64,000 bases of DNA, from the NCBI RefSeq assembly GCF_900114315.1, contig NZ_FOSQ01000002.1, positions 372,001 through 436,000 on the forward strand, read 5' to 3'. Position 1 is the first letter of the stretch. Each line of letters begins with the position of its first letter. Position numbers and translations under genes: made by a program. Under the pieces are notes generated by a model. The model was not told the DNA's origin, ran no database searches, and saw nothing but the letters and a program-made list of their open reading frames with translations. Shown in pieces: positions 34,140-56,731 of the stretch. The stretch comes from Falsiroseomonas stagni DSM 19981 (GTDB lineage Bacteria; Pseudomonadota; Alphaproteobacteria; Acetobacterales; Acetobacteraceae).

Positions 34140-35955
<1,816 letters not shown>

Positions 35956-35959
<4 letters not shown>

Positions 35960-38463: not shown

Positions 38464-38475
38464 TTGTCCGGACAC
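38464..38475. promoter_or_regulatory. Candidate GntR operator, site A
   Basis: TTGTCCGGACAC, one base from the perfect palindrome at site D; the inner TGTCCGGACA is fully symmetric. It is centred about 31 bases upstream of the binding-protein start at 38438. Repression of the peptide ABC-creatininase operon by the GntR protein at 57492 is inferred. Confidence 0.55.
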
Positions 38476-38535
38476 CACGATGGCACGGGACGGGGGCCGC
38501 GCTGTCAAGCTGAATGACGACGCAAAAATCACCTC

Positions 38536-39594
38536 TCAGGGTGACGATGCACGAAACACCATCACTGCCGTATCCGGGATGCCGAGAAAAACAGCCTCCC
38601 CCTGCCTCGGTACCGCCATGCCATCCTCGCTCGCGCGCTTCGCGAAGAAGTCCGGCAGCCCGGCGAAGGAGAGGCGGAGACGGCAATGATCGCCGAGATA
38701 CACGACCTCCGTCACGGTCGCGGGATGACCCGCTTCCGCCAGGCGGACTTTCTCCGGCCGGATGCAGGCAAGTACATGCTCGCCTGTGGAAAAACCATGC
38801 GGCGCCGTCGGTAGCATCGTGCCATCCGCCAGCCGCAGCGTCGTGGAGTCGGCGACCACCGCCTCCATCCGGTTGTTCTCTCCGATGAAGCCAGCGACGA
38901 AGGCGTTGGCGGGGCGTTCGTAGATGGCGTCGGCGGTGCCGAGCTGCTGGATGCGCCCGCCCTCGAACACCGCGATGCGGTCCGACATGGTCAGCGCTTC
39001 CGACTGGTCATGCGTGACATAGACGATGGTCACGCCGAGGGTTGCGTGGATGCGGCGGATCTCCAGTTGCAACTCCTCCCGCAACTGCTTGTCGAGCGCG
39101 CCGAGCGGTTCGTCCATCAGCACGAGGGTCGGGGAGAAGATCAGCGCGCGGGCGAGGGCGACACGCTGCTGCTGGCCGCCGGAGAGTTGCTGCGGGCGAC
39201 GGTCGCCGAAGCCGGACAGGCGCACCATCTCCAGCGCCTTCGCGGTGCGCGCCGCGATCTCGGCGCGCGAGGTGCCGCGGACAGACAGCGGGAAGGCCAG
39301 GTTCTGCGCCACCGTCATGTGCGGGAACAGCGCGTAGTTCTGGAACACCACGCCGATGCCACGCTTGTGCGGCGGCACGGTATCGATGCGCCGGCCTTCG
39401 AGTTCGATGCTGCCCTCGGACGGATCCTCGAACCCCGCCAGCATCATCAGCGTGGTGGTCTTGCCGGAGCCGGACGGGCCGAGGAGTGTCAGGAACTCGC
39501 CCCGCGCGATGTCGAGGTCGAGCCCCGCCACGACCTGCGCGCGGCCGTCATAGGATTTGGACACGGCCCTGAAGCGGACGATCGGCTCGCTCAT
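38536..39594 (-). CDS. ABC transporter ATPase, spermidine/putrescine (PotA) type
   Basis: A 352-residue ATPase of the polyamine/iron/opine importer group. Walker A is LLGPSGSGKTTTLMMLAG, the Q-loop VFQNYALFPHMTV, the signature LSGGQQQRVALARAL, Walker B LVLMDEPLGALDKQLREEL and the H-loop VTHDQSEALTMSDRI. A C-terminal TOBE domain (about 260-350) is present. The form QNYALFPHMTV is typical of PotA. It overlaps the second permease gene and ends the operon that begins with the class IV aminotransferase. Confidence 0.93.
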   Translation of the reverse strand: MSEPIVRFRAVSKSYDGRAQVVAGLDLDIARGEFLTLLGPSGSGKTTTLMMLAGFEDPSEGSIELEGRRIDTVPPHKRGIGVVFQNYALFPHMTVAQNLAFPLSVRGTSRAEIAARTAKALEMVRLSGFGDRRPQQLSGGQQQRVALARALIFSPTLVLMDEPLGALDKQLREELQLEIRRIHATLGVTIVYVTHDQSEALTMSDRIAVFEGGRIQQLGTADAIYERPANAFVAGFIGENNRMEAVVADSTTLRLADGTMLPTAPHGFSTGEHVLACIRPEKVRLAEAGHPATVTEVVYLGDHCRLRLSFAGLPDFFAKRASEDGMAVPRQGEAVFLGIPDTAVMVFRASSP

Positions 39595-40391
39595 GCACGG
39601 CCCCTTCGTTCGGCGCGCAGGCGGATGGCCTCGCTGACCAGCAGGAAGCCGAGGGAGCAGAGGAACAGCATGGTCGCGGCGGCCAGGATGGTGGGGCTCA
39701 GGAATTCGCGCACGCTGGCATACATCTGGCGGGGCAGCGTGAACTGGCCCGGCCCCGCCATGAACAGCGTGATGACGAATTCATCGAGCGAGGTGGCGAA
39801 GGCGAAGATGGCGCCGGCGGCGATGCCGGGCCAGATGTTGGGGACGACGACGCGCAGGAAGGCCGTGGCCGGCGATGCGCCGAGCGAAGCCGCGGCGCGC
39901 AGCAGCGTCGTATCGAAGGTCTGCAACGTCGCCAGCACCGACACCACGACGAAGGGCACGGCGACGACGGTGTGGGCCAGCACCAGCCCCGCCAGCGAAC
40001 CCGTCAGCCCCACCAGCGAATAGGCGAAGAACATCGCGGCCGCGGTGACGATATAGGGCGTGACCATCGGCAAGGTCAGGATAGTCACCAGCACCGCCTT
40101 GCCGCGGAAGCGGCCGAGTTGCAGGCCGAGCGCCGCCATGGTGCCCAGCACCGTCGCCACCATCGTCGTGGCGCCCGCGACGATGAAGCTGTTCTTCATC
40201 GCCAGCAGCCAGCGGCTGGATTCGAGAAACTCGCCATACCAGCGCAGGGAGAAGCCACGCGGCGGCAGCGCCAGCAATTCGGTGGGGGAGAAGGACAGCA
40301 GCACCACCGCCACCATCGGCGCGAGCAGGAAGGCCAGCACCAGCACGGTCGCCAGGCGCAGCAGCAGGCGCGCGATCGGCCCCTCCCTCAT
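39591..40391 (-). CDS. ABC transporter permease, PotC type
   Basis: A 266-residue inner-membrane permease with about six TM segments. The coupling loop TTLLRAAASLGASPATAFLRVVVPNIWPGIAAGAIFAFATSLDEFVITLFM is characteristic of PotC, including SLDEFVI. RGFSLRWYGEFLESSRWLLAMKNSFIVA is the conserved periplasmic-to-TM2 region. It overlaps the PotB-type gene by TGATG and the ATPase gene by ATGA. Confidence 0.93.
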   Translation of the reverse strand: MREGPIARLLLRLATVLVLAFLLAPMVAVVLLSFSPTELLALPPRGFSLRWYGEFLESSRWLLAMKNSFIVAGATTMVATVLGTMAALGLQLGRFRGKAVLVTILTLPMVTPYIVTAAAMFFAYSLVGLTGSLAGLVLAHTVVAVPFVVVSVLATLQTFDTTLLRAAASLGASPATAFLRVVVPNIWPGIAAGAIFAFATSLDEFVITLFMAGPGQFTLPRQMYASVREFLSPTILAAATMLFLCSLGFLLVSEAIRLRAERRGRA

Positions 40392-41572
40392 CAGGCGCGC
40401 CCGCCGGATGTCGCGATGCCGCTGGTCAGCACCCGTGCCAGGCCAATGGCGGCACCGGTCATCGCCAGCAGGTAGGCGGACAGCGCCGCCGCCATGCCCC
40501 AATTCACCTCCCGGTTCATGAAATAGGCGATGAACCAGGCGACCATCTGGTCCCGGTCCCCGCCGACCAAAGCGGGTGCCGTGTACATGCCGACTGCCAG
40601 CAGGAAGACCATCGCCCCCCCCGCCAGCACGCCCGGCAGGCTCATCGGCAGCCACACCCGGAAGAAGCGCTGGAAGCCATTGGCGCCGAGCGAGGCGGCA
40701 GCGCGCAGATAGGTCTGGTCCAGCCGCTTCATCACGCTGTGCATAGGCAGCACCGCGAAGGGCAACAGCACATGCACCAGCGCCACCACCACGGCGATAC
40801 GCGTGCCGACGATCTGCACCGGCACCTCCGTGAGGCCCAGCGCCATCATCGCCTGGTTCACCGGGCCTTCCCGTTGCAGCAGCACGAACCAGGCGGTGCT
40901 GCGCACCAGGACGCTCGACCAGAAGGGGATCAGCACCAGCGTGAGCGCGATGGAGGACCAGGGCGCGCGCAGCCTGGCGATGGTGTAGGCGACGGGATAG
41001 GCGAGAATCACGCAAAGCGCCGTCACGACCAGGCTGATGCCGAGCGTCCGCCAGAACAACATGCGGTACAGGGCTTCATCCGCGGCCACCGCCTCGATCC
41101 CCCCGCCGGCGGCGCGTTGCAGATCCATGGCGCGCAGCAGATAGAGCGGCGTCACCGGCCCGCCGGCGCGCTGGACCAGCAGCCAGGTCTCGGGCGCACC
41201 CCATCGCGCATCCAGCGTCACCATCGATGTGGCATAGGGCGCGGAAAGCCTGTTGGCCGCGCGCGCCGTGCGCAGCAGCAGGCCGCGCATGCCGGTGCGT
41301 TCGAAGTTGAGGCGCTGCGCCATGTCGCCGATGCGCCGATCCTCCAGCGCCTGGCCCAGTTCCTGTGCCATGGCGGCGAAGGCGGCCTCCGGCGGCAGGC
41401 CCTGGCCGTCCCAGGCCACCAGGGCGGCGCGCGTGCGGGGCAGCGTTTCCGCCACCTCCCGGTCCGCCACCGCGGTGAACAGCGCGAAGCCCACGGGCAG
41501 CAGGAAGCTGCCCAGGATCAGCAGCATCAGCGGCGCGATAAGAAGCGCGGCGAGCCAGTTGGTGCGTCGCAT
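40391..41572 (-). CDS. ABC transporter permease, PotB type with large periplasmic insert
   Basis: A 393-residue permease. After TM1 (about residues 7-33) there is a region of about 120 residues (REVAETLPRTRAALVAWDGQGLPPEAAFAAMAQELGQAL and onward) before TM2 (FWRTLGISLVVTALCVILAYPVAYTIARL). This insert makes it longer than a standard PotB of about 285 residues. The coupling loop is QTYLRAAASLGANGFQRFFRVWLPMSLPGVLAGGAMVFLLAVGMY. Similar inserts occur in some alphaproteobacterial opine/polyamine permeases. It follows the binding-protein gene by 28 bases. Confidence 0.9.
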   Translation of the reverse strand: MRRTNWLAALLIAPLMLLILGSFLLPVGFALFTAVADREVAETLPRTRAALVAWDGQGLPPEAAFAAMAQELGQALEDRRIGDMAQRLNFERTGMRGLLLRTARAANRLSAPYATSMVTLDARWGAPETWLLVQRAGGPVTPLYLLRAMDLQRAAGGGIEAVAADEALYRMLFWRTLGISLVVTALCVILAYPVAYTIARLRAPWSSIALTLVLIPFWSSVLVRSTAWFVLLQREGPVNQAMMALGLTEVPVQIVGTRIAVVVALVHVLLPFAVLPMHSVMKRLDQTYLRAAASLGANGFQRFFRVWLPMSLPGVLAGGAMVFLLAVGMYTAPALVGGDRDQMVAWFIAYFMNREVNWGMAAALSAYLLAMTGAAIGLARVLTSGIATSGGRA

Positions 41573-41600
41573 CGCCGCGCTTCTGTCAGGTCAGGGCAGG

Positions 41601-42626
41601 TCAGCGATTCACCCAGGCGGCGAAGCGCTGTTCCAGGTCCGGTCCGTATTCCAGCCAGAACTCGGTGTTGATCTCCAGCCCACCGGCCTGGTGGTTGGTC
41701 ATCATCAGCGGGTTGCGGGCGCGCACCTCGGGGTCGTTGGCCACCGACGCTGTCGCGGGGTTGATCGGCCAGAGCTTCGTCAGTTCCGTCACCGGCCCGG
41801 GTTCCGTGATGTGCTGGATCAGGCGCATGGCCGCCGCGGCGTTGGCGGAGCCGCGCACCACCGCCCAGCTGTCATAGGCATAGAGCAGCGTGGACCAGCG
41901 GAGATTGTAGCGCGCACCGGCGCGGATGCCGTTGGCCGTGCGGCCGACGAAGCCCAGCGCATAGGCGACCTCCCCGGAATTCACCAATTCGATCGGCTGC
42001 TGCCCGCCGGTCCAGAAGACCAGGTTCGGCCGCAGCCGGTCGAGCGCCGCGAAGGCGCGGGCCTGGCCGGCCGGCGTCGCCAGCACGGTGTAGACATCGG
42101 CCGGCGCCACGCCATCGCCCATCAGCGCGGCTTCCAGCGTGATGCGGGCGCCGCGGCGCAGCGTGCGGCGGCCGGGGAAGCGCGTCGTGTCCCAGAATTC
42201 CTGGAAGCTGGCGGGACCGTTGGGGTTTCGGCCCTCATCGTAGAACACGGCAACGCCCCAGCCGATGGCGCCGGCGCCGCAGGTGGTCGCACCACCCGGC
42301 ATGAACTTGGCGCGGTTGACCACGTTGTAGTCGATGCGTTCGAAGATGCCGTCCTCGCAGCCGCGGATCAGGTCCGGCGCTTCCACCAGCACCACGTCCC
42401 AGGTCACGTTGCGGGCCTGCACCATCGCACGGATGGGGCCGACATTGTAGTCATAGGCCGTGTCCACCACCGGCCCGCCGGCGAAGGTGGAGAACAGGGT
42501 GCGCCGCATATGGTCCTGCAGCGCGCCGCCGCCGGCCACCACGGTCAGGTCCCGTGCCGCGGCCGGCGATGCCATCGCCGCGACGCCGAGCACGAGCCCG
42601 GCCAGTTTTCCCAGCAAACGCCTCAT
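41601..42626 (-). CDS. ABC transporter substrate-binding protein, PotD/extracellular family 1 type
   Basis: Periplasmic receptor of 341 residues with signal MRRLLGKLAGLVLGVAAMASPAAARD. It shows the family layout: TVVAGGGALQDHMRRTLF, WDVVLVEAPDLIRGCEDG, IGWGVAVFYDEGRN, NGPASFQEFWDTTRFPGRRTLRRG, and the late YNLRWSTLLYAYDSWAVVRGSANAAAAMRLIQHI. These are typical of polyamine or opine-like ligands; the ligand itself cannot be read. It lies six bases after the class IV aminotransferase stop, in the same operon. Confidence 0.91.
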   Translation of the reverse strand: MRRLLGKLAGLVLGVAAMASPAAARDLTVVAGGGALQDHMRRTLFSTFAGGPVVDTAYDYNVGPIRAMVQARNVTWDVVLVEAPDLIRGCEDGIFERIDYNVVNRAKFMPGGATTCGAGAIGWGVAVFYDEGRNPNGPASFQEFWDTTRFPGRRTLRRGARITLEAALMGDGVAPADVYTVLATPAGQARAFAALDRLRPNLVFWTGGQQPIELVNSGEVAYALGFVGRTANGIRAGARYNLRWSTLLYAYDSWAVVRGSANAAAAMRLIQHITEPGPVTELTKLWPINPATASVANDPEVRARNPLMMTNHQAGGLEINTEFWLEYGPDLEQRFAAWVNR

Positions 42627-42632
42627 CGCGCG

Positions 42633-43583
42633 CTAATCCTCATCCGTGGCCGTGACCGGTGTGATGTGCCAACCCGCATTCTTCTTGCGGTAATAGGTAT
42701 TGAGCAAGCGCGTCGTGATCGGCCCGGGCACACCGGCCCCGATCGGGGTGCCATCGATCCGCGTGACCGGGAACAACCCGCAGGATGTGGCGGTGAGGAA
42801 GGCTTCCTCCGCGCCCAGAAGCGCCTCCGGCGTCAGGGCGCCGTATCGGGCGGGAATGCCGAGCTCGGCCGCGATCTCGAACATGGTGCGGCAGGAGATG
42901 CCCTCCAGCACGCCCGAATCGGGGCTGACCAGCCCGCCATCGATGACGGCCACGATGTTGAAGCCGGGGGCCTCCGCCACCAGCCCGTCGGTCGCCAGCA
43001 GGATGGGCGTGTCGAAGCCCGCATCCTTGGCGGCGAAGGTGGCGCGGATGAAGTCGCCCCAGTGGCTGTTCTTCCACACCGGGTTCACGGCGCTGCCGGG
43101 AATGCGGCGGATGTCGCGCACCAGCATCGCATCCTTGCCGCGCGCCATCTCCTCGGGCTGCCCGCGCAGCACCAGGGGCGTGACGGTGGCGAAGAAATTG
43201 TTCCGGGACAGCGTCGGGTCGCGGGATCCCGGCACCGCCAGGCCCCGCGTGCAGGCGAAATAGACCAGCGTGTCCGGCAGCCCGCTGCGCCGCACGAGGT
43301 CCATCAGCACCGCCCGCATCGCCGCGCGATCCATCCCGGCATCCAGCCGCAGCCCCTGCATGGAGGCGAAGAAGCGGTCGAGGTGATCCTCCAGCCGGAA
43401 GAAGCCGCCCTTCCAGGTATGGACCACGTCATAGGTCATGTCGGCATACATCAGGCCGAGGTCGCGGACGGAGATCTTCGCCTCCGCCAGCGGCACCACC
43501 GCGCCATCGATGAAGCCGAGCGCCTTGCTGAAATCGGCGTTCTCCACGGTCAGATGCGTGGGAACCTGCAGCGCCTCGGTCAT
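42633..43583 (-). CDS. Class IV aminotransferase (D-amino acid aminotransferase/BCAT-like)
   Basis: A 316-residue PLP enzyme of fold type IV. FIDGAVVPLAEAKISVRDLGLMYADMTYDVVHTWKGGFFRLEDHLDRFFAS is the standard N-terminal block. The Schiff-base Lys is K171 in NPVWKNSHWGDFIRA. The PLP-phosphate region is VSPDSGVLEGISCRTMFEIA and the C-terminal TATSCGLFPVTRIDG. It is the first gene of a polyamine-type ABC operon and is preceded by a TTGTCCGGACAG palindrome 11 bases upstream of the ATG. It may deaminate an imported amino compound. D-amino acid, branched-chain and (R)-amine transaminases are all possible. Confidence 0.9.
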   Translation of the reverse strand: MTEALQVPTHLTVENADFSKALGFIDGAVVPLAEAKISVRDLGLMYADMTYDVVHTWKGGFFRLEDHLDRFFASMQGLRLDAGMDRAAMRAVLMDLVRRSGLPDTLVYFACTRGLAVPGSRDPTLSRNNFFATVTPLVLRGQPEEMARGKDAMLVRDIRRIPGSAVNPVWKNSHWGDFIRATFAAKDAGFDTPILLATDGLVAEAPGFNIVAVIDGGLVSPDSGVLEGISCRTMFEIAAELGIPARYGALTPEALLGAEEAFLTATSCGLFPVTRIDGTPIGAGVPGPITTRLLNTYYRKKNAGWHITPVTATDED

Positions 43584-43594
43584 CCGTCGCCCTC

Positions 43595-43606
43595 TTGTCC
43601 GGACAG
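43595..43606. promoter_or_regulatory. Candidate GntR operator, site B
   Basis: TTGTCCGGACAG, with perfect inner palindrome TGTCCGGACA. It lies 11 bases upstream of the class IV aminotransferase start, almost touching its ribosome-binding site, and 79 bases upstream of the divergent amidase ATG at 43686. A repressor bound here could control both operons. Confidence 0.55.
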
Positions 43607-43685
43607 GATAGGGAGGGGTTTCGCGCCGCGTCAAACCGGCGGGCCCCGGCTTTGCACGGTGGCCACAACGTCGCATGCTGCTTGT

Positions 43686-45104
43686 ATGGAACCACCCGCC
43701 AGCCTGCCTGTCGATGACCTGGCCGAGGCCGTTACGGCGCTGGCGGAGGGCCGCACGGACCCCGAGGCCCTGCTGGAAGCCTGCCTGGCAAGGCTTTCCG
43801 CCCTCAATCCCAGGCTCAACGCCGTCATCGCCATGGACCTCCCCGCCGCCCGCGCGGCGGCCGCGGCCTCCCTGTCCAGGCGCCGGGCCGGGCGCGCCCT
43901 GGGCCCGCTAGATGGCGTTCCCTTCACGGTGAAGGACAACCTCTACGCCGCCGGCTTCGGCGCCAGCTGGGGGTCGCGTCTGTTCAAGGATTTCGCGCCG
44001 CGGGTGGATGACCTTTGCGTGGCCAGGCTGCGGGCGGCGGGGGCGGTGCTGGTCGGCAAGACCAACACGCCCGAATTCGCCCTGGCCGTGCACACCGGAA
44101 ACCCGGTCTTCGGCACCACGCGCAACCCCTGGAACACGGCGCTGGTGCCGTCGGGGTCCTCCGGCGGGGCGGCGGCGGCGGTGGCCACGGGCATGGCGCC
44201 GCTGGCGATCGGCACGGATGCAGGGGGCTCCATCCGGCTGCCGGCATCCTTCACGGGGATCAGCGGCTTCAAGCCCAGCACGGGGCGCATCCCCCGCCTG
44301 CACGGCTTTCCGCCCTTGTCGCTGGACTACCAGGCCATCGGCGTCATGGCGCGGGATGTCGCCGGCATCCGGCTGGCGATGGCGGTGCTGGCGGGCGGCG
44401 ATGCGCGGGACCGCGCCTCCCTGGCCTTCGGGGCGCTCGACGAAGCGCCGCTCGCCCCCGGCACCCGGGCGCGGCTGGTGATGGAGGCCGGCGGCGAAGG
44501 GGTGGACCCGGCCGTGGCGGCGCTGGTGCGCGATGCGGCCTCCGTCCTCGCGACGATCGGCTGCACCGTGACCGAGGGCGCGCTGCCCGGCGACGCCATC
44601 CAGCTTCGCGACGTCTCCGCCGTGCTCTCCGCCGTCGGCGTCGCCCGGGTGGTGGAGGCGCATCAGGGCTGGCGCGATGCCGTCACGCCGCCGATCCGCG
44701 CCACGGCCGAGCGCGGCCTGGCGATCTCCGCCACCGACTACGCCCGCGCGCAGGATGGCCTGGCCGCCTGGCGGGCCGCGGTCGGCGCCGCCATGGGCGA
44801 TGACGATGTGCTGGTGACGCCCACCTGCCCCGCGCCGCCCTGGCCGATCGACTCCGGCCCGCCCGCCACGGTCGGCGGGCGCCAGGCCGGGCCGCGCATG
44901 CCCGTCGCCTTCACCGCCTTCGCGAACGCCATGGGCTGGCCGGCCATCTCCATCCCCTGCGGCCTGTCGCCCGACGGGCTACCGATCGGCCTGCACATCA
45001 TTGGCCGGTACGGGGAGGATGCCCGCGTGCTCGCCCTCGCCGAGGCCTTTCAACAGCGCACCGCCTGGCACAAGGCGCGGCCGCCCCTGGGAGAAACGCC
45101 ATGA
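43686..45104 (+). CDS. Amidase signature family hydrolase
   Basis: A 472-residue amidase that hydrolyses an amide to acid and ammonia in the cytoplasm. The Ser-cisSer-Lys triad is complete: K83 in GVPFTVKDNLYA, S158 in VPSGSSGGAAAAVATG, and S182 in GTDAGGSIRLPASFTG. The C-terminal region NAMGWPAISIPCGLSPDGLPIGLHIIG is conserved. The ATG at 43686 starts the plus-strand operon amidase-Bug-SMP30-Bug, divergent from the aminotransferase and ABC operon. The stop overlaps the Bug start (ATGA). The substrate is unknown; pairing with Bug receptors suggests an imported amide. Confidence 0.92.
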   Translation: MEPPASLPVDDLAEAVTALAEGRTDPEALLEACLARLSALNPRLNAVIAMDLPAARAAAAASLSRRRAGRALGPLDGVPFTVKDNLYAAGFGASWGSRLFKDFAPRVDDLCVARLRAAGAVLVGKTNTPEFALAVHTGNPVFGTTRNPWNTALVPSGSSGGAAAAVATGMAPLAIGTDAGGSIRLPASFTGISGFKPSTGRIPRLHGFPPLSLDYQAIGVMARDVAGIRLAMAVLAGGDARDRASLAFGALDEAPLAPGTRARLVMEAGGEGVDPAVAALVRDAASVLATIGCTVTEGALPGDAIQLRDVSAVLSAVGVARVVEAHQGWRDAVTPPIRATAERGLAISATDYARAQDGLAAWRAAVGAAMGDDDVLVTPTCPAPPWPIDSGPPATVGGRQAGPRMPVAFTAFANAMGWPAISIPCGLSPDGLPIGLHIIGRYGEDARVLALAEAFQQRTAWHKARPPLGETP

Positions 45105-46075
45105 CCGTCACCCGACGCACCCTGCTCGGCGCCCTGCCGCCCGCGCTGCTGGCCGCGCCCGCCCTGGCGCAGGATGCCTGGCCGAGCCGCCCGATCCGGC
45201 TGGTCGTCCCCTTCCCGCCCGGCGGCCCCACCGACATCATGGGCCGGCTTCTCGCGCAGGCGCTGGAGGTCGATCTCCGCACCCCCGTGGTGGTGGAGAA
45301 CCGCGCCGGCGCGACGGGTGCCATCGGCAGCACCGCGGTGATGCAGGCGCCGCCGGATGGCTACACGCTGGTCGTCGGCACGCTGGGCAGCCACGCGCTC
45401 CAGCCCCTGATCGCGAAGACCCCGGCCTATGACCCGCGGCGGGATTTCGCGCCTGTCGCGCTGTTCGCCACCATCGCCAATGTCCTGATGGTGCATCCCG
45501 GCGTGAATGTCCGCACGGCCGGCGAATTGGTGGCGCTGCTGAAGGCGGAACCCGGCCGGCATAATTACGGCTCCGCCGGCATCGGATCGCCCATCCATCT
45601 CTCCGCCGTGCTGCTGGAGGGCGTGGCCGGCGTGCAGGCGCAGCACATCCCCTATCGCGGCTCCGCGCCCGCCATCCAGGATTTGCAGGGCGGGCGGCTC
45701 ACCTTCATGTTCGATGCGGTGCCCAGCGCCATGGGTGCCATCCAGGGCAATGCCGTGCGTGCGCTGGCGGTCACGACGCCCAACCGCATCGCCGCCCTGC
45801 CGGACCTGCCGACGATGCAGGAAGCCGGCATCGCGCCCTATGACGCCTATACCTGGAACGCCATCTTCGCGCCGCCACGGACGCCGGAGCCCATCGTCGC
45901 GCGCCTCAACGCCGCCATCGGCGCCATCACCGCGCGGCCGGAGTTCCGCGCCCGCGCCACCGCGCTCGGCGCCGATGCCGCGACCTCCACGCCCGAGGCC
46001 CTGCGCGCCCTGGTGACGGCGGAGATGGAGAAGTGGCGGGCCATCGTGGAAACCGCCGGCGCGCGGGAGAGCTGA
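45101..46075 (+). CDS. Bug/TctC-family receptor
   Basis: Periplasmic receptor of 324 residues with signal MTVTRRTLLGALPPALLAAPALAQD. The canonical first strand WPSRPIRLVVPFPPGGPTDIMGRLLAQALE is present, then GATGAIGSTAVMQAPPDGYTLVVGT and QHIPYRGSAPAIQDLQGGRLTFMFD. It is coupled to the amidase (ATGA overlap) and followed one base later by the SMP30 gene, so it probably binds the amidase substrate or a related carboxylate. Confidence 0.94.
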   Translation: MTVTRRTLLGALPPALLAAPALAQDAWPSRPIRLVVPFPPGGPTDIMGRLLAQALEVDLRTPVVVENRAGATGAIGSTAVMQAPPDGYTLVVGTLGSHALQPLIAKTPAYDPRRDFAPVALFATIANVLMVHPGVNVRTAGELVALLKAEPGRHNYGSAGIGSPIHLSAVLLEGVAGVQAQHIPYRGSAPAIQDLQGGRLTFMFDAVPSAMGAIQGNAVRALAVTTPNRIAALPDLPTMQEAGIAPYDAYTWNAIFAPPRTPEPIVARLNAAIGAITARPEFRARATALGADAATSTPEALRALVTAEMEKWRAIVETAGARES

Positions 46076-46076
46076 G

Positions 46077-46970
46077 ATGGACACGATCCGCTGCCTGGCC
46101 GACACGGCCGACGAACTCGGCGAGAGCCCGGTCTGGGACCCCCGCGACAACTGCGTCTGGTGGCTGGACAACCTCAAGCCCGCCATCCATCGCTGCGACC
46201 CGGCCACGGGGGCCCATGCCGAATGGAAGCTGCCGGAATTCGTCGGCTCCATCGGGCTGCGCGCCAGGGGCGGCTTCATCGCCGGCACGCTTCAGGGCTT
46301 CGCGATCCTCGATCCGGCAAAGGGCATCTTCGACACCATCGCGCGGCCGGAGCCCGACAAGCCCGGCAACCGCATGAATGACGGCAAGGTGGATCGCCGC
46401 GGCCGCTACTGGTGCGGCGGCATGAATGCCCGCTTCGTCGAGACCTATGAAGCCTCGGCCTCGCTCTGGCGGCTCGATCCCGATGGCAGCGTGCACCGGA
46501 TGGAAACCGGCATCATCGTCGGCAACGGGATCGCCTTCAGCCCCGATGACCGGACCATGTACCTCTCCGACAGCAGCGCGAAGACCGTCTGGGCCTATGA
46601 TTTCGATAGCGAAGCCGGCACCATCGCGAACCGCCGCATCTTCCTGTCCGCCACCAACTTCCCGGGCCACAACGGCAAGGTCGATGGGGCGGCGGTGGAT
46701 ACGGATGGCTTCTACTGGGCAGCGCTGCCCTATGACGGGCTGCTGATGCGCTACGCCCCGGATGGCAGGGTGGATCGCTGCTACCGCATGCCATCCTCCT
46801 GCCCCACCATGCCGAGCTTCGGCGGCGCGGGGCATGACGTGATGTTCGTCACCACCGCCCGGAAATTCCTGAATGGCTGGCAGCGCGGCGTGCAGCGCTG
46901 GGAAGGCGCGCTGCTGGAAATCACGGGGCTGGGCGTGAAGGCCCTGCCGGAACCCATGTTCGCGGGCTGA
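46077..46970 (+). CDS. SMP-30/gluconolactonase-family lactonase
   Basis: A 297-residue six-bladed beta-propeller hydrolase using one divalent metal, cleaving lactones of sugar or other acids. Metal ligands are expected at the Glu in ELGESPVWDP, the Asn in IIVGNGIAFSPDDRTMYLSDS and the Asp in that same block. NRMNDGKVDRRGRYWCGG is the substrate-loop motif. No signal peptide is present. It lies one base after the Bug gene and 45 bases before a second Bug gene. An acid-plus-lactone pathway is suggested by this pairing. Confidence 0.91.
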   Translation: MDTIRCLADTADELGESPVWDPRDNCVWWLDNLKPAIHRCDPATGAHAEWKLPEFVGSIGLRARGGFIAGTLQGFAILDPAKGIFDTIARPEPDKPGNRMNDGKVDRRGRYWCGGMNARFVETYEASASLWRLDPDGSVHRMETGIIVGNGIAFSPDDRTMYLSDSSAKTVWAYDFDSEAGTIANRRIFLSATNFPGHNGKVDGAAVDTDGFYWAALPYDGLLMRYAPDGRVDRCYRMPSSCPTMPSFGGAGHDVMFVTTARKFLNGWQRGVQRWEGALLEITGLGVKALPEPMFAG

Positions 46971-47015
46971 CCGGCCTGTGCTTCACTGCCATCCAACAAC
47001 GGGAGATTTCACACC

Positions 47016-47990: not shown

Positions 47991-48047
47991 CCTGAAGACG
48001 GCCACGGGCCGCTCATCAAGCGTTCTGCTGCCTGGGGCGGGCGACGC

Positions 48048-48072
48048 GTGGGGAAGGCAGCACCTTCCCCAC
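48048..48072. terminator. Hairpin with GTGGGGAAGG stem, copy 2
   Basis: Perfect arms GTGGGGAAGG (48048-48057) and CCTTCCCCAC (48063-48072) around the loop CAGCA. The arms are identical to those at 5231-5255. It lies between the Bug stop and the converging helicase stop and probably ends both transcripts. Confidence 0.5.
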
Positions 48073-48081
48073 CATCACGCG

Positions 48082-49878: not shown

Positions 49879-49976
49879 TGTGTGCCCCCCCTAGCGCAGA
49901 AAGGGCGCGACCGCACGCATTACCGCAGCGCGGCGCCGCCCCACGCATGGCAGCACCGCGCGGCAGGCAGGGCGGC

Positions 49977-50942
49977 TCAGTTCAAGGCAACGCCGGCACG
50001 GCGGGCGACATCCGTCCAGCGCGTGACCTCCGACCGCACATGGGCCGCGAAGGCGTCGGGCGCCAGCGCGGCCATGGAGGCCCCGCCGGCTTCCAGCACC
50101 CGCTGGTATTGCGGCTCCGCCATGGCGCGGTTGATGGCGGCGTTGATCGTGGCCGTCAGCGCCGGTGGCAGGCGGGCGGGGGCGAAGACGCCCCACCAGA
50201 CGCCGGTCACAAAGTCGATCCCCGTGGCCTCCCGCACCGTCGGCACGTCCGGCATCCGTGCATCCCGCGCGGCGGAGGCGGTGGCGAGCAGGCGAAGCTG
50301 CCCGGCCTCGATCAGCCCCCGGGCGGAGGCGAGCGTCGTCACCACCAGGTCGATCCGCCCGGCGGCGGCATCGGTCTGCGCCTCCGTGATCCCGCGATAG
50401 GCCACCGCCTCCATGTCCAGGTTGGCGGCCATCTTGAGGAGTTCGGTCGCGAAGAAGGACGTATCCCCTGGCCCCGCGCCGCCGAAGCGCAGCATCCCCG
50501 GGCGTTCGCGCGCGATCCGCACCAGATCCGCCATGGTCCGCGCCGGGCTGTCCCGGCCGACCGTGACGATCATCGGCGCCACGGCGGCCTGGGCGATGGG
50601 GGTGAAATCCGCGACGGGATCGTAGGGCAGGCGCTGCACCGCGGCGTTGGTCGTCAGGGAGGACGACATGAACAGCAGCGTGTAGCCATCCGGCGCCGAT
50701 TTCGCGACCTGGTCGGCACCGATCGCCCCCCCTGCCCCCCCGCGGTTCTCCACCACGAAGGGTTGCCCAAGCTGCGCGCCCAGCCTCTCACTCAGCGCGC
50801 GGCCCAGAACGTCGTTGCTGCCGCCCGGTGGGAAGGGCACCACCATGCGCACGGCCCGCGACGGCCAGGCCGGCTGCGCGGTGGCAAGGCCCGGCAGCGC
50901 ACCCAGCGCCGCGGCGGCCAGAAGCGTCCTGCGATCGATCAT
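49977..50942 (-). CDS. Bug/TctC-family receptor
   Basis: Periplasmic receptor of 321 residues with signal MIDRRTLLAAAALGALPGLATAQ. WPSRAVRMVVPFPPGGSNDVLGRALSERL and GGAGGAIGADQVAKSAPDGYTLLFM are standard. The second signature is AVAYRGITEAQTDAAAGRIDLVV. It overlaps the AtzE-like amidase gene (ATGA) and is the last gene of the CoA transferase operon. Confidence 0.93.
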   Translation of the reverse strand: MIDRRTLLAAAALGALPGLATAQPAWPSRAVRMVVPFPPGGSNDVLGRALSERLGAQLGQPFVVENRGGAGGAIGADQVAKSAPDGYTLLFMSSSLTTNAAVQRLPYDPVADFTPIAQAAVAPMIVTVGRDSPARTMADLVRIARERPGMLRFGGAGPGDTSFFATELLKMAANLDMEAVAYRGITEAQTDAAAGRIDLVVTTLASARGLIEAGQLRLLATASAARDARMPDVPTVREATGIDFVTGVWWGVFAPARLPPALTATINAAINRAMAEPQYQRVLEAGGASMAALAPDAFAAHVRSEVTRWTDVARRAGVALN

Positions 50943-52360
50943 GCAGCGTCTCCGTGAATTCGTGCCGGCAGCCCCGGCGTGAAGGACCAGCCCAGCGCGG
51001 CCGAGAGACCGGCGCCGAGCGCGAGAAGCCGCGCCTCCCCGAAGGGGCGCCCAACCAGCTGCGCGGCCACGGGCATGCCGTTGCGGTCCAGGCCGATGGG
51101 CACGGTCAGCACGGGCAGGCCGAGATAGGAGAAGGGGCGCGTCCAGCTGGTCAGCGCCGCGACCACCGGGAAGACGCGGCCGGCGGCTTCCATGTCGGCC
51201 TCCGCACGCGTCGGCACCGCGATGGGGATGGCGGGGCAGACCAGGGCGTCGGCATCCGCCATGACCGTCGCCAGAAACTGGTCCAGCATCCGTCCCCGCA
51301 GCGCCAGCGCTTCCAGGTAGCGCTGGGCGGGGATGTGCAGGCCGGGCTCCGTGCGGGAATGCACGGCGGTCGAGTAGTCCCCGCCCCTCGTCGCCATCCA
51401 ATGGCCGTGGAGGGTCGAGGCCTCGACCTTGGACAGCACATCGCCCAGCGCGTCGCAGGCGCCGAATTCCTGGAAGGCGCGCCGCGCGATCGGGCCGTGC
51501 AACTCGGTGGCCACGCGCAGCAGATCCTCGATCCGCGCGGCGATGTCGGGCTCCATCGCGCCGGGATCGGCGAGGGTGACGATGCGCGATCCCGCCGCGG
51601 CCGTGGCGATGCGGGCCGCATAATCCGGCACCGGCGCATCCAGCGATGTCGGGTCACGCGGATCGGCGCCCGCGAGTGCGCCCAGCATCAGCGCGGCGTC
51701 CTCCGCCGTCCGCGTCATCGGGCCCACGCAATCCAGGCTGTGCGCGCGCGGGAAGCAGCCAGCGCGGCTGACGCGCCCGTAGGTCGGCTTCAGCCCGAAC
51801 AGCCCCTGCATGGCGGCGGGCAGGCGGATGGAGCCGCCGGTATCCGAGCCCAGCGCCCCATAGACGGCGCCGGACGCCACGGCGGAGCCGGAGCCGGAGG
51901 AGGAGCCGCCGGAGACACGATCGGCATCCCAGGCATTCCGGCAATCGCCGAGATGCGGGTTCTGCCCCGTCGGCCCCGCGACGAATTCATTCATGTTCAG
52001 CCGGCCGAGATCGACCGCGCCCGCCGCTTCCAGCTTCGCGAGCGCCGTCGCGTCCCTTGTGCCGGGCGCGCTTTCCGCCAGCAGCCTGGACCCCACGCCC
52101 ATCACGGCGCCCGCGCGTTCGAAGCAATCCTTGTGCGCCAGCGGCACGCCGTGCAGCGGGCCGCGGATATGTCCCGCGCGCAGTTCGGCATCCAGCGCCC
52201 TTGCCTGGTCCAGCGCGCGATCAGCGAAAATCTCCACGAAGGCGTTGGTCAGGGGCTGCGCCGCCTCCGCCTGCTCGATCGCGGCGAGGGTGACTTCCAG
52301 GCTGCTGACCTGGCGCGCGCGGATGGCCGCGGCGATCTCCGCCAGCGACAGCTCAAGCAT
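50939..52360 (-). CDS. Amidase signature family hydrolase (AtzE/GatA-like)
   Basis: A 473-residue amidase. It carries the Lys in HGVPLAHKDCFERAG, the cis-Ser region DRVSGGSSSGSGSAVASG and the nucleophile region GSDTGGSIRLPAAMQGLFGLKPTYGRVSR. PFSYLGLPVLTVPIGLDRNGMPVAAQLVG is the C-terminal block. The GGSSSGSG form resembles GatA and AtzE. A small protein of 69 residues is encoded just upstream, overlapping by eight bases, as AtzG or GatC partners often are. The hydrolysed amide is unknown. The ATG at 52360 gives the normal N-terminal helix. Confidence 0.9.
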   Translation of the reverse strand: MLELSLAEIAAAIRARQVSSLEVTLAAIEQAEAAQPLTNAFVEIFADRALDQARALDAELRAGHIRGPLHGVPLAHKDCFERAGAVMGVGSRLLAESAPGTRDATALAKLEAAGAVDLGRLNMNEFVAGPTGQNPHLGDCRNAWDADRVSGGSSSGSGSAVASGAVYGALGSDTGGSIRLPAAMQGLFGLKPTYGRVSRAGCFPRAHSLDCVGPMTRTAEDAALMLGALAGADPRDPTSLDAPVPDYAARIATAAAGSRIVTLADPGAMEPDIAARIEDLLRVATELHGPIARRAFQEFGACDALGDVLSKVEASTLHGHWMATRGGDYSTAVHSRTEPGLHIPAQRYLEALALRGRMLDQFLATVMADADALVCPAIPIAVPTRAEADMEAAGRVFPVVAALTSWTRPFSYLGLPVLTVPIGLDRNGMPVAAQLVGRPFGEARLLALGAGLSAALGWSFTPGLPARIHGDAA

Positions 52361-52562
52361 TGGCGGGGTCGGCGTGGCGCAGCAGGGCGGCGGGGAAATC
52401 CGCGGGCTGGTCGCTGAAATGCAGCGCCGGGCGAGCAATGTCCCGCACCGCCGTGTTCAGCCGGAGAACCTCCCGCGCCACCGCCGGCGCGCCGGCCCGG
52501 CTTGCGATGCCGTGCAGGTCGCGGATGGAAATCTCCACCAGCCGGGTGATCTCCTCGCTCAT
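52353..52562 (-). CDS. Small protein, possible GatC/AtzG-like amidase partner
   Basis: A 69-residue, mostly helical protein: EEITRLVEISIRDLHGIASR, then EVLRLNTAVRDIARPALHFSDQPADFPAAL. The C-terminal DQPADF segment and the size recall GatC and AtzG, which wrap around and stabilise their amidase. It overlaps the amidase gene by eight bases and the CitE-like gene by four (ATGA), so stoichiometric expression is likely. Similarity is weak by eye, so the partner role is an inference from context. Confidence 0.55.
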   Translation of the reverse strand: MSEEITRLVEISIRDLHGIASRAGAPAVAREVLRLNTAVRDIARPALHFSDQPADFPAALLRHADPANA

Positions 52563-53401
52563 GCCTGGCCTGCCAGCGCGAGGATGCGACGCGCGCGGAT
52601 CAGGATGGGCTCATCGACCATCATGTCGTCCACGGTGAAGGATCCGCGGCCGTCGCGTGCCGCTTCCTCCGCCGCCGCCAATTGCCGCCGCGCGAGGTCG
52701 ATTTCCTTCTCGCTCGGCGAGAATCCCTCGTTCAGCACGGGCACCAGCGCCGGGTGGATGCAGGTGGCGCCGACGAAGCCGGACCGCTTCGACCGCGCGA
52801 CCAGGTCGCGGATGCGCGCCGCATCCCGGTAATCCGCCACGGTGCCGAGCGTGCCGAGCGGCGCCACGCCCGCCGCCACCGCCGCCAGCACCATCTGCCG
52901 CTTGGCCAGCACGATGAGGTCGTCATCCGAGGCCGCGTTGCATTCCAGCGCCAGATCCTCCGCCCCCACCAGCAGCCCCGCGACCATCGAGGATGCGCGC
53001 GCGATCGCCTCCATCTGCGGCACCGCGGCCGCCGTCTCGATCATCGGCACGATCACCATCTTTTGCCGGGCGCCGGCCAGCACTTCCGCCGCCAGCCGCA
53101 CATGGTCCGGCCCCATGCATTTCGTCAGCAGGATGCCATGCGCGCCCGCTTCCGCCGCCGCCTCCATGTCCGGCACCGCCAGTCTCAGCGGCCGGTTGAT
53201 GCGCACCAGCACCTCCGCCCCGCCCGATCCCGCCATCGGCACCGCGTCCTTCAGCGCCGCGCGCGCTTCCAGCTTGCGGTCATGCGGCACGCTGTCCTCG
53301 ACATCCAGCACCACCGCATCCGCGCCGGCACCCGGCGCCTTGGCCACGAAGCGCGGCACATTGGCGGGCACATAGAGCATGGAACGCCAGACGCGGGTCA
53401 T
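52559..53401 (-). CDS. CitE/HpcH-HpaI family lyase
   Basis: A 280-residue TIM-barrel protein related to the citrate lyase beta subunit and malyl-CoA or citramalyl-CoA lyases. Motifs are RSMLYVPANVPRFVAKAPGAGADAVVLDVEDSV, LVRINRP, MVIVPMIETAAAVPQMEAI (metal-side Glu), LLVGAEDLALECNAAS and GFVGATCIHPALVPVLNEGFSP. It probably cleaves a CoA-linked hydroxyacid formed by the adjacent CoA transferase. It overlaps that gene (TGATG) and the small protein gene (ATGA). Confidence 0.9.
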   Translation of the reverse strand: MTRVWRSMLYVPANVPRFVAKAPGAGADAVVLDVEDSVPHDRKLEARAALKDAVPMAGSGGAEVLVRINRPLRLAVPDMEAAAEAGAHGILLTKCMGPDHVRLAAEVLAGARQKMVIVPMIETAAAVPQMEAIARASSMVAGLLVGAEDLALECNAASDDDLIVLAKRQMVLAAVAAGVAPLGTLGTVADYRDAARIRDLVARSKRSGFVGATCIHPALVPVLNEGFSPSEKEIDLARRQLAAAEEAARDGRGSFTVDDMMVDEPILIRARRILALAGQA

Positions 53402-54666
53402 CAGACAGTCTCTCCGTGAAGGATCACGCCGGAAGCGCGCAGCCGCGCGACCTCGGCCTCGCCCAGCAGGGGCACGAGCAGCGCATCATTATCCTGGCCG
53501 AGCCGCGGCGCGGCATTGCGGAGGATGCCCGGCGTGACGGAAAGCCGTGGCACCTCCCCATGCATGGGCAGCCAGCCATCCGGCATCTCCGGGTCCGGCA
53601 CCTCGATCAGCGCCTCCCGCTGCGCGGCATAGTCGTCGGCGTCGATATCCTCGACATCCATGATGGGGCCGATGGTGACGCCGTCGCGGTCGAATTTCGC
53701 CAGCGCCTCCTCCCGCGTCATCGCGGCGATGGCGTCGCGGATGACGCCGTCGATCGCCTCGATATGCTTCAGGCGGTCGGGGTTGGTGCGGAAGCGCGGG
53801 TCATCCACCAGCTCCGCCCGCCCGATGCTCTGCATCAGGCGCACGAAGACCGCCTGGGTGGAGGTCGACAGGCTGAGCCAGCCGCCATCCTTCGTGCGAT
53901 AGGCATTGCGCGGCGCGGTGTTGGTGCTGCGGCTGCCGGTGCGCGGCTTCTTCGTGCCCATCATCCGCCAGTTCGCCATCTGCGGTTCCAGCACGGCGAA
54001 GATCGGCTCGAACAGCGACAGGTCGATGACCTGCCCCTGCCCCGTGCGCTCCGCGTGGTGCAGCGCGATCATGGCGGCGGAAGCGCCATAGAGCCCCGCA
54101 TAGGCATCCGCCATGAACATCGGCGGCAGTACCGGTTCGCGGTCCTCGAAGCCGTTGATGGCGGCGAAGCCCGAATAGCCCTCCACCAGCGTGCCGAAGC
54201 CGCCCTTGTGACGGTAGGGGCCGGTCTGCCCCCAGCCGGAGACGCGCACGATCACCAGCTTCGGGTTCAACGCCAGCAGCGTTTCCGGCGCGAGCCCCAT
54301 TGCCTCCAGCGTGCCGGGCTTGAAGCTCTCCACGAACAGCGACGCCGTCGCGGCCAGGCGCTTCACCACCGCGATCGCCTCGGCATTGCGGAGATCCATG
54401 CAGGTGCTGCGCTTGTTGCGGCACCAGGTCTTCCACGCCGTCTCCACGCCGCCGACCTTCCAGGCGCGCAGGCTGTCGCCCGCCGGCGGCTCCACCTTCA
54501 CCACTTCCGCCCCATGGTCGGCCAGCACCTTGGTCAGCATGTTGCCCGCGACCAGCCGCGCCAGGTCGATCACGCGCACGCCGTCCAGCGCGCCCTTCGC
54601 CGCCGGGTCGAAATCCCGCCGCCGCTTGTTGGATCGCGGCTTGTGCCTCAATGGGGTATCGCCCAC
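53401..54666 (-). CDS. Family III CoA transferase (CaiB/BaiF)
   Basis: A 421-residue CoA transferase that moves CoA from one carboxylate to another. It starts LDGVRVIDLARLVAGNMLTKVLADHGAEVVKVEPPAGDSLRAW, a typical N-terminal block. The catalytic Asp lies in PPMFMADAYAGLYGASAAMIAL, and SGWGQTGPYRHKGGFGTLVEGYSG is the glycine loop. It is the first gene of the five-gene minus-strand operon: CoA transferase, CitE-like lyase, small protein, amidase, Bug. It is divergent from the PuuE-type gene. A TTGTCCGTACAA site lies 23 bases upstream. Together with the lyase, it suggests degradation of an imported hydroxy- or dicarboxylate. Confidence 0.93.
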   Translation of the reverse strand: MGDTPLRHKPRSNKRRRDFDPAAKGALDGVRVIDLARLVAGNMLTKVLADHGAEVVKVEPPAGDSLRAWKVGGVETAWKTWCRNKRSTCMDLRNAEAIAVVKRLAATASLFVESFKPGTLEAMGLAPETLLALNPKLVIVRVSGWGQTGPYRHKGGFGTLVEGYSGFAAINGFEDREPVLPPMFMADAYAGLYGASAAMIALHHAERTGQGQVIDLSLFEPIFAVLEPQMANWRMMGTKKPRTGSRSTNTAPRNAYRTKDGGWLSLSTSTQAVFVRLMQSIGRAELVDDPRFRTNPDRLKHIEAIDGVIRDAIAAMTREEALAKFDRDGVTIGPIMDVEDIDADDYAAQREALIEVPDPEMPDGWLPMHGEVPRLSVTPGILRNAAPRLGQDNDALLVPLLGEAEVARLRASGVILHGETV

Positions 54667-54689
54667 GTGCCTGCCTTCAGGTAGTGTTG

Positions 54690-54701
54690 TTGTCCGTACA
54701 A
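54690..54701. promoter_or_regulatory. Candidate GntR operator, site C
   Basis: TTGTCCGTACAA, one base different from site D; with flanks GTTGTCCGTACAAC it is a 14-base palindrome with one mismatched pair. It lies in the divergent region between the CoA transferase operon (start 54666) and the PuuE-type gene, 51 bases before the latter's ATG at 54753. At site D the equivalent distance is 50. Confidence 0.6.
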
Positions 54702-54752
54702 CGGTAGGCGCGGGGCCCGGCTCGGGTCAATGCGCAGGCAGGCGGGGGCAGC

Positions 54753-55679
54753 ATGACCTACCAGGTGAAGCGGGACTTCGTCGGCTATGGCCGCCATACG
54801 CCGGACCCGCGCTGGCCGAACGCGGCGCGCATCGCCGTCAACTTCGTCCTCAATGTGGAGGAAGGCTCCGAACCCTCCGTCCAGGACGGCGAGGGTTTCA
54901 CCGAGAACAACCTGACCGAGGCCGCCGCCCGCGCGCAGATCCCGCGCGGCCGCGACCTGGCGGCGGAGGGCATGTTCGAATACGGCAGCCGCGCCGGCTT
55001 CTGGCGCATCCTCCGCGCCTTCGAGGACCGGAAACTCCCCCTCACCTTCTTCGCCTGCGCCCTCGCGCTCGAACGCAATCCCCCCATCGCGGAAGCGATC
55101 CGCGACAGCGGCATGGACATCTGTTCGCATGGCTGGCGCTGGGTGAAGCACTACGAAATGGATGAGGCCGAGGAGCGGTCTCAGATCGCCCGCGCCGTCG
55201 CCAGCTTCAAGGCCACCACGGGCATGACGCCGGAGGGCTGGTACTGCCGCTACGGACCCAGCGTGAACACGCGCCGCCTGGTCGCGGAACACGGAGGTTT
55301 CCTCTACGACAGCGACTATTACGGCGACGAATTGCCGCATTGGGTGACGGTGCAGGGCAGCCCGCATCTGGTCGTGCCCTACACCATGACGACGAATGAT
55401 GCGCGGCACTTCGGCGCCGCCACGACCGCCGACGACTGGTTCCATTTCTGCCGCGACCATTTCGACGTGCTCTACGCCGAAGGCGCGGCGGGACGGCCCC
55501 TGATGATGTCCATCGGCCTGCATTCCCGGATCACCGGCCAGCCCGCGCGCGCCGCCGGCCTTCACCGCCTGCTGGATCACATGGCGGCGAAGGAGGGCGT
55601 CTGGATCACGCGGCGGATCGACATCGCCCGTCACTGGGTGGCGACGCATCCCTATCCCGGCCGTGGCCTGAACGAATAG
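54753..55679 (+). CDS. Polysaccharide deacetylase family protein (PuuE/allantoinase type)
   Basis: A 308-residue NodB-fold hydrolase resembling cofactor-independent allantoinase PuuE and related cyclic amidases. The signature RDFVGYGRHTPDPRWPNAARIAVNFVLNVEEGSE is the PuuE N-terminus. LPLTFFACALALERNPP and DICSHGWRWVKHYEMDEAEER follow, the latter with the His of the active site. It ends GLHSRITGQPARAAGLHRLLDHM, also typical. It probably opens a cyclic amide (allantoin or hydantoin type). It is divergent from the CoA transferase operon and converges on a Bug gene. Confidence 0.88.
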   Translation: MTYQVKRDFVGYGRHTPDPRWPNAARIAVNFVLNVEEGSEPSVQDGEGFTENNLTEAAARAQIPRGRDLAAEGMFEYGSRAGFWRILRAFEDRKLPLTFFACALALERNPPIAEAIRDSGMDICSHGWRWVKHYEMDEAEERSQIARAVASFKATTGMTPEGWYCRYGPSVNTRRLVAEHGGFLYDSDYYGDELPHWVTVQGSPHLVVPYTMTTNDARHFGAATTADDWFHFCRDHFDVLYAEGAAGRPLMMSIGLHSRITGQPARAAGLHRLLDHMAAKEGVWITRRIDIARHWVATHPYPGRGLNE

Positions 55680-55683
55680 GCAT

Positions 55684-56652
55684 TCAGTCCGGCCGGATAT
55701 TCGCCTCCCGGATCACGCGGGTCCAACGCGCGCGGTCGCGCTCGATCAGCGCGCCAAAGGCGGCCGGCGTCATCGGTGCGGGATCGGAACCCTGGGCGAG
55801 CAGCTTTTCGCGGAAGGCGGGGCGCGCCAGCAGCGCATTGACCTCGGTGTTCACGCGATCGACCACCGCGGCGGGCGTGCCTGTCGGCGCCGCGATGCCG
55901 TACCAGCCCGTGGCCTCATAGCCCGGCACGCCGGATTCCGCGACGGTCGGGATGTCCGGCAGCGCCGCGTTGCGCGTCGCCGTCGTCACCGCCAGGGCGC
56001 GGACGCGGCCTTCCCGGATATGCGGCAGGGCCAGCGGCAGCGTATCGCACAGGATCTGCACGCGCCCCGCGATGGTGTCCGTCATGGCCGGGCCGCCCCC
56101 GCGGTAGGGGATGTGCTGGATGTCCACGCCCGCCATCTGCTTCAGCAATTCGCCAAAAAGATGTTGGGCCGTGCCGTTGCCGCCGCTGGCATAGGAGAGC
56201 GCGCCGGGCTGCGCCTTTGCCAGCGCCAGCAGCTCCGTCATCGTCCGCGCCGGCACCGCGGCATTGACGATGAAGATGGAGGGCACGATCGCCACCATCG
56301 CCACGGGCGTCAGGTCGCGGGACGGATCGATGTTCAGCCTGAACAGGCCCGGATTGATCGCGAAGGGGCCGGTGCTGGCCAGCAGCAACGTGTAGCCATC
56401 CGGCGTGCTGCGGGCCGCGTGTTCCGTGCCGATGGCGCCGCCGGCGCCGACGCGGTTCTCCACGAAGACCGTCTGGCGCAGCGCCGCCGTCAGCTCCTCC
56501 GCCATCAGCCGCGCCGTGAGGTCCGCGGCGCCACCTGGCGGGAAGGGGGAAACCAGCCGCACCTGGCGGTTCGGCCATTCCGCGCCCTGCGCCAGCGCCG
56601 GCATGGAAAGCCCCGCCATGCCGCTGGCCAGCAGCGTCCTGCGTCGCATCAT
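55684..56652 (-). CDS. Bug/TctC-family receptor
   Basis: Periplasmic receptor of about 322 residues with signal MMRRRTLLASGMAGLSMPALAQ. WPNRQVRLVSPFPPGGAADLTARLMAEEL, GAGGAIGTEHAARSTPDGYTLLLAS and QHIPYRGGGPAMTDTIAGRVQIL are standard. AAGGGAAA precedes the ATG at 56652. An upstream ATG at 56718 would add 22 residues that do not look like a signal and would start next to the operator. It is divergent from the isochorismatase gene across site D. Confidence 0.92.
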   Translation of the reverse strand: MMRRRTLLASGMAGLSMPALAQGAEWPNRQVRLVSPFPPGGAADLTARLMAEELTAALRQTVFVENRVGAGGAIGTEHAARSTPDGYTLLLASTGPFAINPGLFRLNIDPSRDLTPVAMVAIVPSIFIVNAAVPARTMTELLALAKAQPGALSYASGGNGTAQHLFGELLKQMAGVDIQHIPYRGGGPAMTDTIAGRVQILCDTLPLALPHIREGRVRALAVTTATRNAALPDIPTVAESGVPGYEATGWYGIAAPTGTPAAVVDRVNTEVNALLARPAFREKLLAQGSDPAPMTPAAFGALIERDRARWTRVIREANIRPD

Positions 56653-56719
56653 CGGTCCGTTTCCCTTGGCTGATGCCCGGATGCGCCGCTCGCGATACGC
56701 GGCGCCCTCGGTTATCATG

Positions 56720-56731
56720 TTGTCCGGACAA
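56720..56731. promoter_or_regulatory. Candidate GntR operator, site D (perfect palindrome)
   Basis: TTGTCCGGACAA, a perfect 12-base palindrome and the best of four copies in the window. It lies in the divergent region between the Bug gene (start 56652) and the isochorismatase-GntR genes (start 56782), 50 bases before the latter. HutC-type GntR proteins bind TTGT-N4-ACAA-like sites, and such a regulator is encoded 760 bases away. Confidence 0.65.

Follow-up and report, generated by a model that had tools for sequence, protein, structure and literature searches.

The closest described counterparts of the system considered here are the HutC-subfamily regulators of the GntR family (NagR/YvoA, DasR and HutC). 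In the excerpted text of PMC4494728, a GT-N4-AC spacing is given as typical of the operators of this subfamily, with the consensus NyGTMTAKACNy and therefore a TA centre; exceptions to the consensus and single sites in divergent gaps are also described there. The NagR repressor reads the half-site TGGT by means of Arg38 and Arg48, according to the excerpts of PMC4333415. Here we analyzed a stretch of 64,000 nucleotides from Falsiroseomonas stagni DSM 19981 (G000:C30:372001-436000, the window in what follows; the genome comprises 6.38 Mb in 44 contigs), in which four copies of a palindrome, sites A to D, lie ahead of transport and catabolic genes, one of them in front of the operon for the GntR-UTRA regulator R1 (Table 1). 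An earlier reading of the window, the original prediction, had assigned all four sites to this one regulator. Based on the comparisons below, the CG-centred form of the palindrome, TTGTNCGNACAA, is very probably recognized as an operator by a group of HutC-subfamily GntR repressors in the Acetobacteraceae, and we estimate a probability of roughly 0.82 that sites C and D serve as operators for a HutC-type protein, be it R1, a second regulator encoded elsewhere (R2) or both; this estimate concerns C and D only and includes, as narrower attributions, the cases of R1 alone and R2 alone. Like the described subfamily members, R1 and R2 combine a GntR winged helix-turn-helix with a UTRA domain, and the closest sequence matches of R1 in the PDB are YvoA (NagR), the putative regulator 2ra5 and DasR. 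The palindrome also resembles the subfamily operators in being even, with GT-N4-AC, and in occurring as single sites in divergent gaps, in agreement with the GntR/HutC-type operator form that had been proposed for it.

All four palindromes were found at the positions originally given for them, and a scan of the window for TTGTCCGGACAA with up to two mismatches returned only these four, each with 0 or 1 mismatch (one apiece in sites A and B), which bears out the remark that no other copy had been noticed there. Shuffled controls gave a mean of 1.09 matches and reached four in 3 of 100 shuffles; TTGT and ACAA words are rare in the window because its G+C content is 68-74%. The start-codon distances of the original prediction (11-67 bp, with 51 bp for C and 50 bp for D to the plus-strand gene) held with our own gene calls, as did the location of three sites (B, C, and D) in divergent gaps, while site A precedes a single minus-strand gene. 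R1, described as the sole regulator of its type in the window, is indeed the only UTRA match among the window proteins, and its coupling to the gene behind site D is evident from the overlap of its start (57492) with the end of the isochorismatase gene (57495). The sites of the four supposed operons are thus real, but up to seven transcription units, not four, are involved because B, C, and D sit in divergent gaps.

The genome scan suggested by the original prediction showed that the palindrome is not restricted to the window. The pattern TTGTCCGNACA gave 16 forward and 12 reverse matches, corresponding to 20 distinct places (controls, 1 and 0), and all 11 matches to TTGTNNNNACAA were of the form TTGTNCGNACAA (reversed control, 5). 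An initial survey of 59 relatives with the any-core pattern TTGTNNNNACAA gave counts close to or under the control for most other genera among the matches listed, and the CG-centred form was therefore used thereafter; this site pattern fixes the CG centre and permits one outer mismatch, other cores being outside that step. Nineteen of the 20 places are intergenic, as called by a simple gene caller trained on 19 window genes, and the noncoding share of the fetched DNA of this genome is 6.7%; the motif is accordingly not as frequent inside genes as between them. Among the fetched loci of the genus, mostly picked for holding sites, 81 of 84 sites are intergenic and often lie 10-40 bp ahead of a start codon. 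The lone in-gene site (L037) is probably a chance match, and the site ahead of an LptC gene (L036) may be another. Chance as the source of the whole set was rejected on the basis of the counts against reversed controls in genome and genus. With 20 places spread genome-wide, a regulon of the size of the window is not supported.

Seven of the 20 places are concentrated within 22 kb of contig C22 (L029, L030), in a cluster that encodes two TRAP transporters, two MmgE/PrpD proteins, class III CoA-transferases, an acyl-CoA dehydrogenase, a MaoC hydratase, PuuE-like, DUF2848 and D-glutamate-cyclase-type proteins, and the second GntR-UTRA regulator, R2. R2 is 39% identical to R1 and unlinked to the window. 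Nine UTRA matches were counted across the genome, of which one falls in the window, and the palindrome was not found in the loci of the seven paralogs other than R1 and R2 (~3.4 kb each). Six of the seven named loci with R2 relatives are from Falsiroseomonas, Roseomonas or an Acetobacteraceae metagenome-assembled genome (MAG), and the seventh is from a Streptosporangiaceae MAG (32% identical). The C22 cluster also includes a gene for a 311-aa protein (L029:12834-13769) that adjoins the MaoC gene and is conserved at 66-72% in four other R2 clusters; Pfam and NCBIfam searches with this protein gave no match.

We surveyed 15 genomes of the genus with R1 as the query (E <= 1e-20) and found a regulator match in 12 of them and none in three. 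An R2 ortholog (66-100% identical to R2) is present in 11 of the 15, and R1 is present in four, every one of which also has R2. All 11 genomes with R2 have 4-12 copies of TTGTNCGNACAA, compared with 0 in the four others (reversed control, 0-1), and the seven genomes that have R2 without R1 still have 4-11. The strand matches to TTGTCCGNACA numbered 16-24 in four R2 genomes tested and 0, 0, 0, and 4 in four genomes without R2. Moreover, all 11 genomes have a palindrome no farther than 1.5 kb from R2. The single regulator of the original prediction is therefore not borne out, since R2 has the denser cluster of such sites and the palindrome tracks R2, not R1.

Three relatives (G005, G012, and G013) retain the window genes in the same order, with protein identities of 84-98%. 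All three match the window in every one of the 12 bases of sites C and D, whereas A and B are found in none, and based on this difference C and D are conserved putative operators of the R1 cluster and A and B are particular to the source genome, being known from it only and presumably either gained there or lost in the relatives. The expectation that the motif is kept in orthologous clusters retaining the regulator is thus borne out in these relatives for C and D and fails for A and B, and a conserved regulon that joins both ABC importers is not supported because A and B are absent from 3/3 relatives with the same gene order.

Support for R1 as a binder comes from outside the genus. An order-wide search (299 genomes sampled, with the best nine or fewer candidates per genome scored; the loci examined are those listed) identified R1 homologs of 43-51% identity in at least 14 genomes, and in 11 of these 14 a TTGTNCGNACAW-type site precedes the regulator gene, at 114-138 bp from its matched part, which makes R1 a plausible binder, as originally suggested. 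One further genome (G321) has a site elsewhere in its R1-homolog cluster, and nine of the 14 clusters (L203-L216) have a second palindrome between PrpD and the set of genes for ECH, a protein of about 696 aa and acyl-CoA dehydrogenase. In the tree, the four R1 proteins group with the 14 homologs in a single clade (support 100/98), apart from the clade that holds R2 of the genus (100/100); the deeper forks are weakly supported. The split of R1 and R2 looks old, judging from this topology, and we infer that their ancestral operator may have been shared.

The bases flanking the CG centre differ between groups of sites. In the genus, CCGG is the core of 48/57 sites that belong to R2 clusters or lie dispersed in R2-only genomes, and in the window it is the core of sites A, B, and D, whereas site C has ACGG, the commonest core at R1 homologs of other genera (9/20). 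Of the sites in the core counts, two in L206 and one in L217 lie inside called genes, perhaps because of over-long starts in L206. A Fisher test on core type gave p = 2e-10, a value that is overstated, as related sites were counted as independent. On the protein side, R1 of the genus has SRAT and its 14 homologs elsewhere have SRST, while a site accompanies most proteins with R[EQ]ALR[RQ]L but is lacking from those with REALR[LV]. A recognition-residue rule was dropped as proof, since the residue pattern follows the tree, the deeper forks of which are weak. Both R1 and R2 have Arg at the place of NagR Arg48 and Ala at that of Arg38 (from a position table with our own placement rather than an alignment with NagR), a combination that fits a TTGT half-site.

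The placement of the palindrome relative to promoter-like sequences fits a repressor acting near the transcription start. With sites oriented toward the near gene, 25 of 74 genus sites have a TTGAC whose start lies 22-34 bp ahead of the palindrome, compared with 3 of 74 at the mirror position; in the source genome the numbers are 8/16 and 0/16 on the far side. At site B the TTGAC is upstream on the side of the minus-strand gene. Considering the family and the site position, we expect that a dimer would bind the palindrome close behind the promoter and block transcription, and that it would come off when a ligand occupies the UTRA domain. R1 in the window and R2 in its separate catabolic cluster would then coexist with one operator code, site D would be an autoregulatory operator of R1, and A and B, as additions or remnants, would place the two ABC importers under the same code.

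Several observations weigh against this interpretation. The -35-like TTGAC is limited to the 25 oriented sites noted above, two thirds being without it, and the -10-like signal just ahead of the palindrome is faint (position -2 is A in 53%). The centre is CG in all 11 TTGTNNNNACAA sites and TA in the subfamily consensus as excerpted from PMC4494728, and an R2-like protein with Arg at the NagR Arg38 place still has TTGT (L155/L197). Genome G014 has a 39% homolog and zero copies of TTGTNCGNACAA, yet four matches to TTGTCCGNACA. Three of the 14 R1 homologs lack a site within 300 bp, as does a clade of 13 R2-like proteins, one of which has a site 933 bp away; an alternative motif was sought in this clade and not found, except for a single TGGTCCGGACCA in L159 and imperfect copies in L164 and L166. 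CCGG is the core of only 1/20 R1-cluster sites of other genera and 2/5 sites of R2-like clusters outside the genus, and the core rule may be confined to the genus; by core type, A, B, and D resemble R2 sites more closely. Finally, palindromes A and B are missing in the three relatives even though their flanks align at 76-77% and 83-87%, respectively.

As to which protein acts on the window sites, we prefer the reading that C and D would be bound by both R1 and R2. The proposal that R1 alone governs all four sites as a local nutrient regulon draws on the position of R1 behind site D and on the palindromes upstream of its homologs in other genera, but R2 in the same genome has the same palindrome, A and B are absent where relatives keep R1, and the CCGG core at A, B, and D is the usual one for R2 sites in the genus, all of which make it quite improbable. 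It is unlikely, too, that R2 alone acts on the palindrome throughout the genus, with R1 having shifted its site or lost binding: the R1 cluster keeps C and D without any change, with D ahead of the R1 operon itself, and a site upstream has been kept by R1 homologs as distant as 43-51% identity, against which stand the palindromes in the seven genomes with R2 and without R1, the prevalence of CCGG at R2 sites, and the SRAT of genus R1 versus SRST in its homologs.

A palindrome belonging to an unrelated regulator would find a candidate in the LysR proteins, as one LysR gene is at 58305 in the window and another is in the R2 cluster; given that GT-N4-AC has GntR spacing, that distant clusters with the site share GntR-UTRA genes, and that presence of the palindrome tracks R2, we regard this as very improbable. 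A separate possibility, compatible with C and D being operators, is that A and B match the motif by chance at promoters. Their one mismatch apiece and conservation in 0/3 relatives would suit chance, which is nevertheless doubtful since they lie 11-25 bp from a start codon with TTGAC upstream, like other sites, and the genome-wide 11-mer control is 1. Returning to binding by both proteins, it is possible, and we suggest it tentatively, that two long-diverged HutC-type repressors with different sensor domains share an operator code and that the R1 cluster was captured by the R2 code, a capture that in this genome extended to the two ABC-importer operons with sites A and B. This suggestion is based on operator D, which has the CCGG core of R2 and not the ACGN-type core of R1 homologs elsewhere.

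R1 and R2 differ from the described subfamily members in that none of the NCBIfam models listed for them (best 25 of 28 each) reaches its curated cut-off; for HutC proper (TIGR02018, cut-off 220 bits) they score 75 and 85.2 bits, respectively. The GntR repressor PxpR of Corynebacterium was also considered and set aside. In the literature searched, which left most subscription journals outside, the 12-mer occurred in one unrelated paper and three variants in none, and Roseomonas, GntR, and regulon were not found together, Falsiroseomonas not being searched by name. R1-type clusters in other genera of the Acetobacteraceae are alike in regulator type, in the upstream palindrome, and in a TctC gene beside R1 (9/14), and differ in their catabolic genes: PrpD, ECH, a 691-703 aa protein, and acyl-CoA dehydrogenase adjoin R1 in 11/14, where the window cluster has amidases and a CoA-transferase/lyase pair.

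The window genes (Table 1) suggest amide or ureide hydrolysis that would feed the CoA-transferase and lyase. Their closest named models all score under cut-off: PuuE for the PuuE-like hydrolase (372.8 of 424.6 bits), AtzE models for the AtzE-like amidase, RutB and biuret-hydrolase models, by far, for the isochorismatase-fold hydrolase, and RipC_Ccl, the top NCBIfam model for the lyase (129.8 of 375 bits). The last resembles the itaconate genes ripC/ccl, and the R2 cluster likewise has a RipB/Ich-like MaoC hydratase (225.4 bits; cut-off 340); as all itaconate-type matches are under cut-off, itaconate is not claimed as the substrate. In the fetched loci, a homolog of the window lyase (33% identical) is near a palindrome only once outside R1 genomes, in L218 of a distant genome. 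There, a CoA-transferase/CitE pair and a site are near an R2-like regulator and genes for acyl-CoA dehydrogenase, CoA-transferases, and MaoC, so that the R1 and R2 gene sets are connected through this combination of a window-like pair with R2-like surroundings. A 69-aa open reading frame at 52353-52562, without a Pfam match, is flanked by the lyase and AtzE-like amidase genes, a position that we take to be reminiscent of AtzG next to AtzE. A gene for a DbpA-type DEAD-box RNA helicase (48082-49878) lies amid the catabolic operons, its position kept in three relatives. Domain scans of the ABC operons covered all genes other than those at 39591-40391, 32335, and 33165.

Table 1. Palindromes A-D and the genes around them, in window coordinates; distances are to start codons.
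Feature	Position	Strand	Sequence or domain	Setting
Site A	38464..38475		TTGTCCGGACAC	25 bp ahead of oligopeptide-type ABC operon (38438 down to 32335); TTGACA upstream
Site B	43595..43606		TTGTCCGGACAG	11 bp to aminotransferase/ABC operon (-), 79 bp to amidase operon (+) on opposite side
Site C	54690..54701		TTGTCCGTACAA (TTGTACGGACAA on opposite strand)	23 bp to CoA-transferase operon (-), 51 bp to PuuE-like gene (+)
Site D	56720..56731		TTGTCCGGACAA	67 bp to TctC receptor gene (-), 50 bp to isochorismatase-R1 operon (+)
ABC importer operon with SBP_bac_5 receptor	32335..38438	-		behind site A
Class IV aminotransferase and ABC importer with SBP_bac_8 receptor	38536..43583	-		behind site B
Amidase, TctC, SMP-30/gluconolactonase-like, and TctC genes	43686..47990	+		behind site B
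TctC receptor	49977..50942	-	PF03401	last of site C operon
AtzE-like amidase	50939..52360	-	PF01425	
CitE/HpcH-type lyase (RipC/Ccl-like)	52559..53401	-	PF03328	
Class III CoA-transferase	53401..54666	-	PF02515	behind site C
PuuE-like hydrolase, polysaccharide deacetylase fold	54753..55679	+	PF01522	behind site C
TctC (Bug) receptor	55684..56652	-	PF03401	behind site D
Isochorismatase-fold hydrolase	56782..57495	+	PF00857	opens R1 operon
R1, GntR-UTRA (HutC-type) regulator	57492..58241	+	PF00392, 64.5 bits (cut-off 27); PF07702, 47.5 bits (cut-off 23.8)	

The palindrome would provide a testable operator for many genes of transport and CoA-linked catabolism in Falsiroseomonas-like bacteria. It also offers a case in which single sites are present or absent among close relatives, and in which two old paralogs seem to read the same 12 bases.

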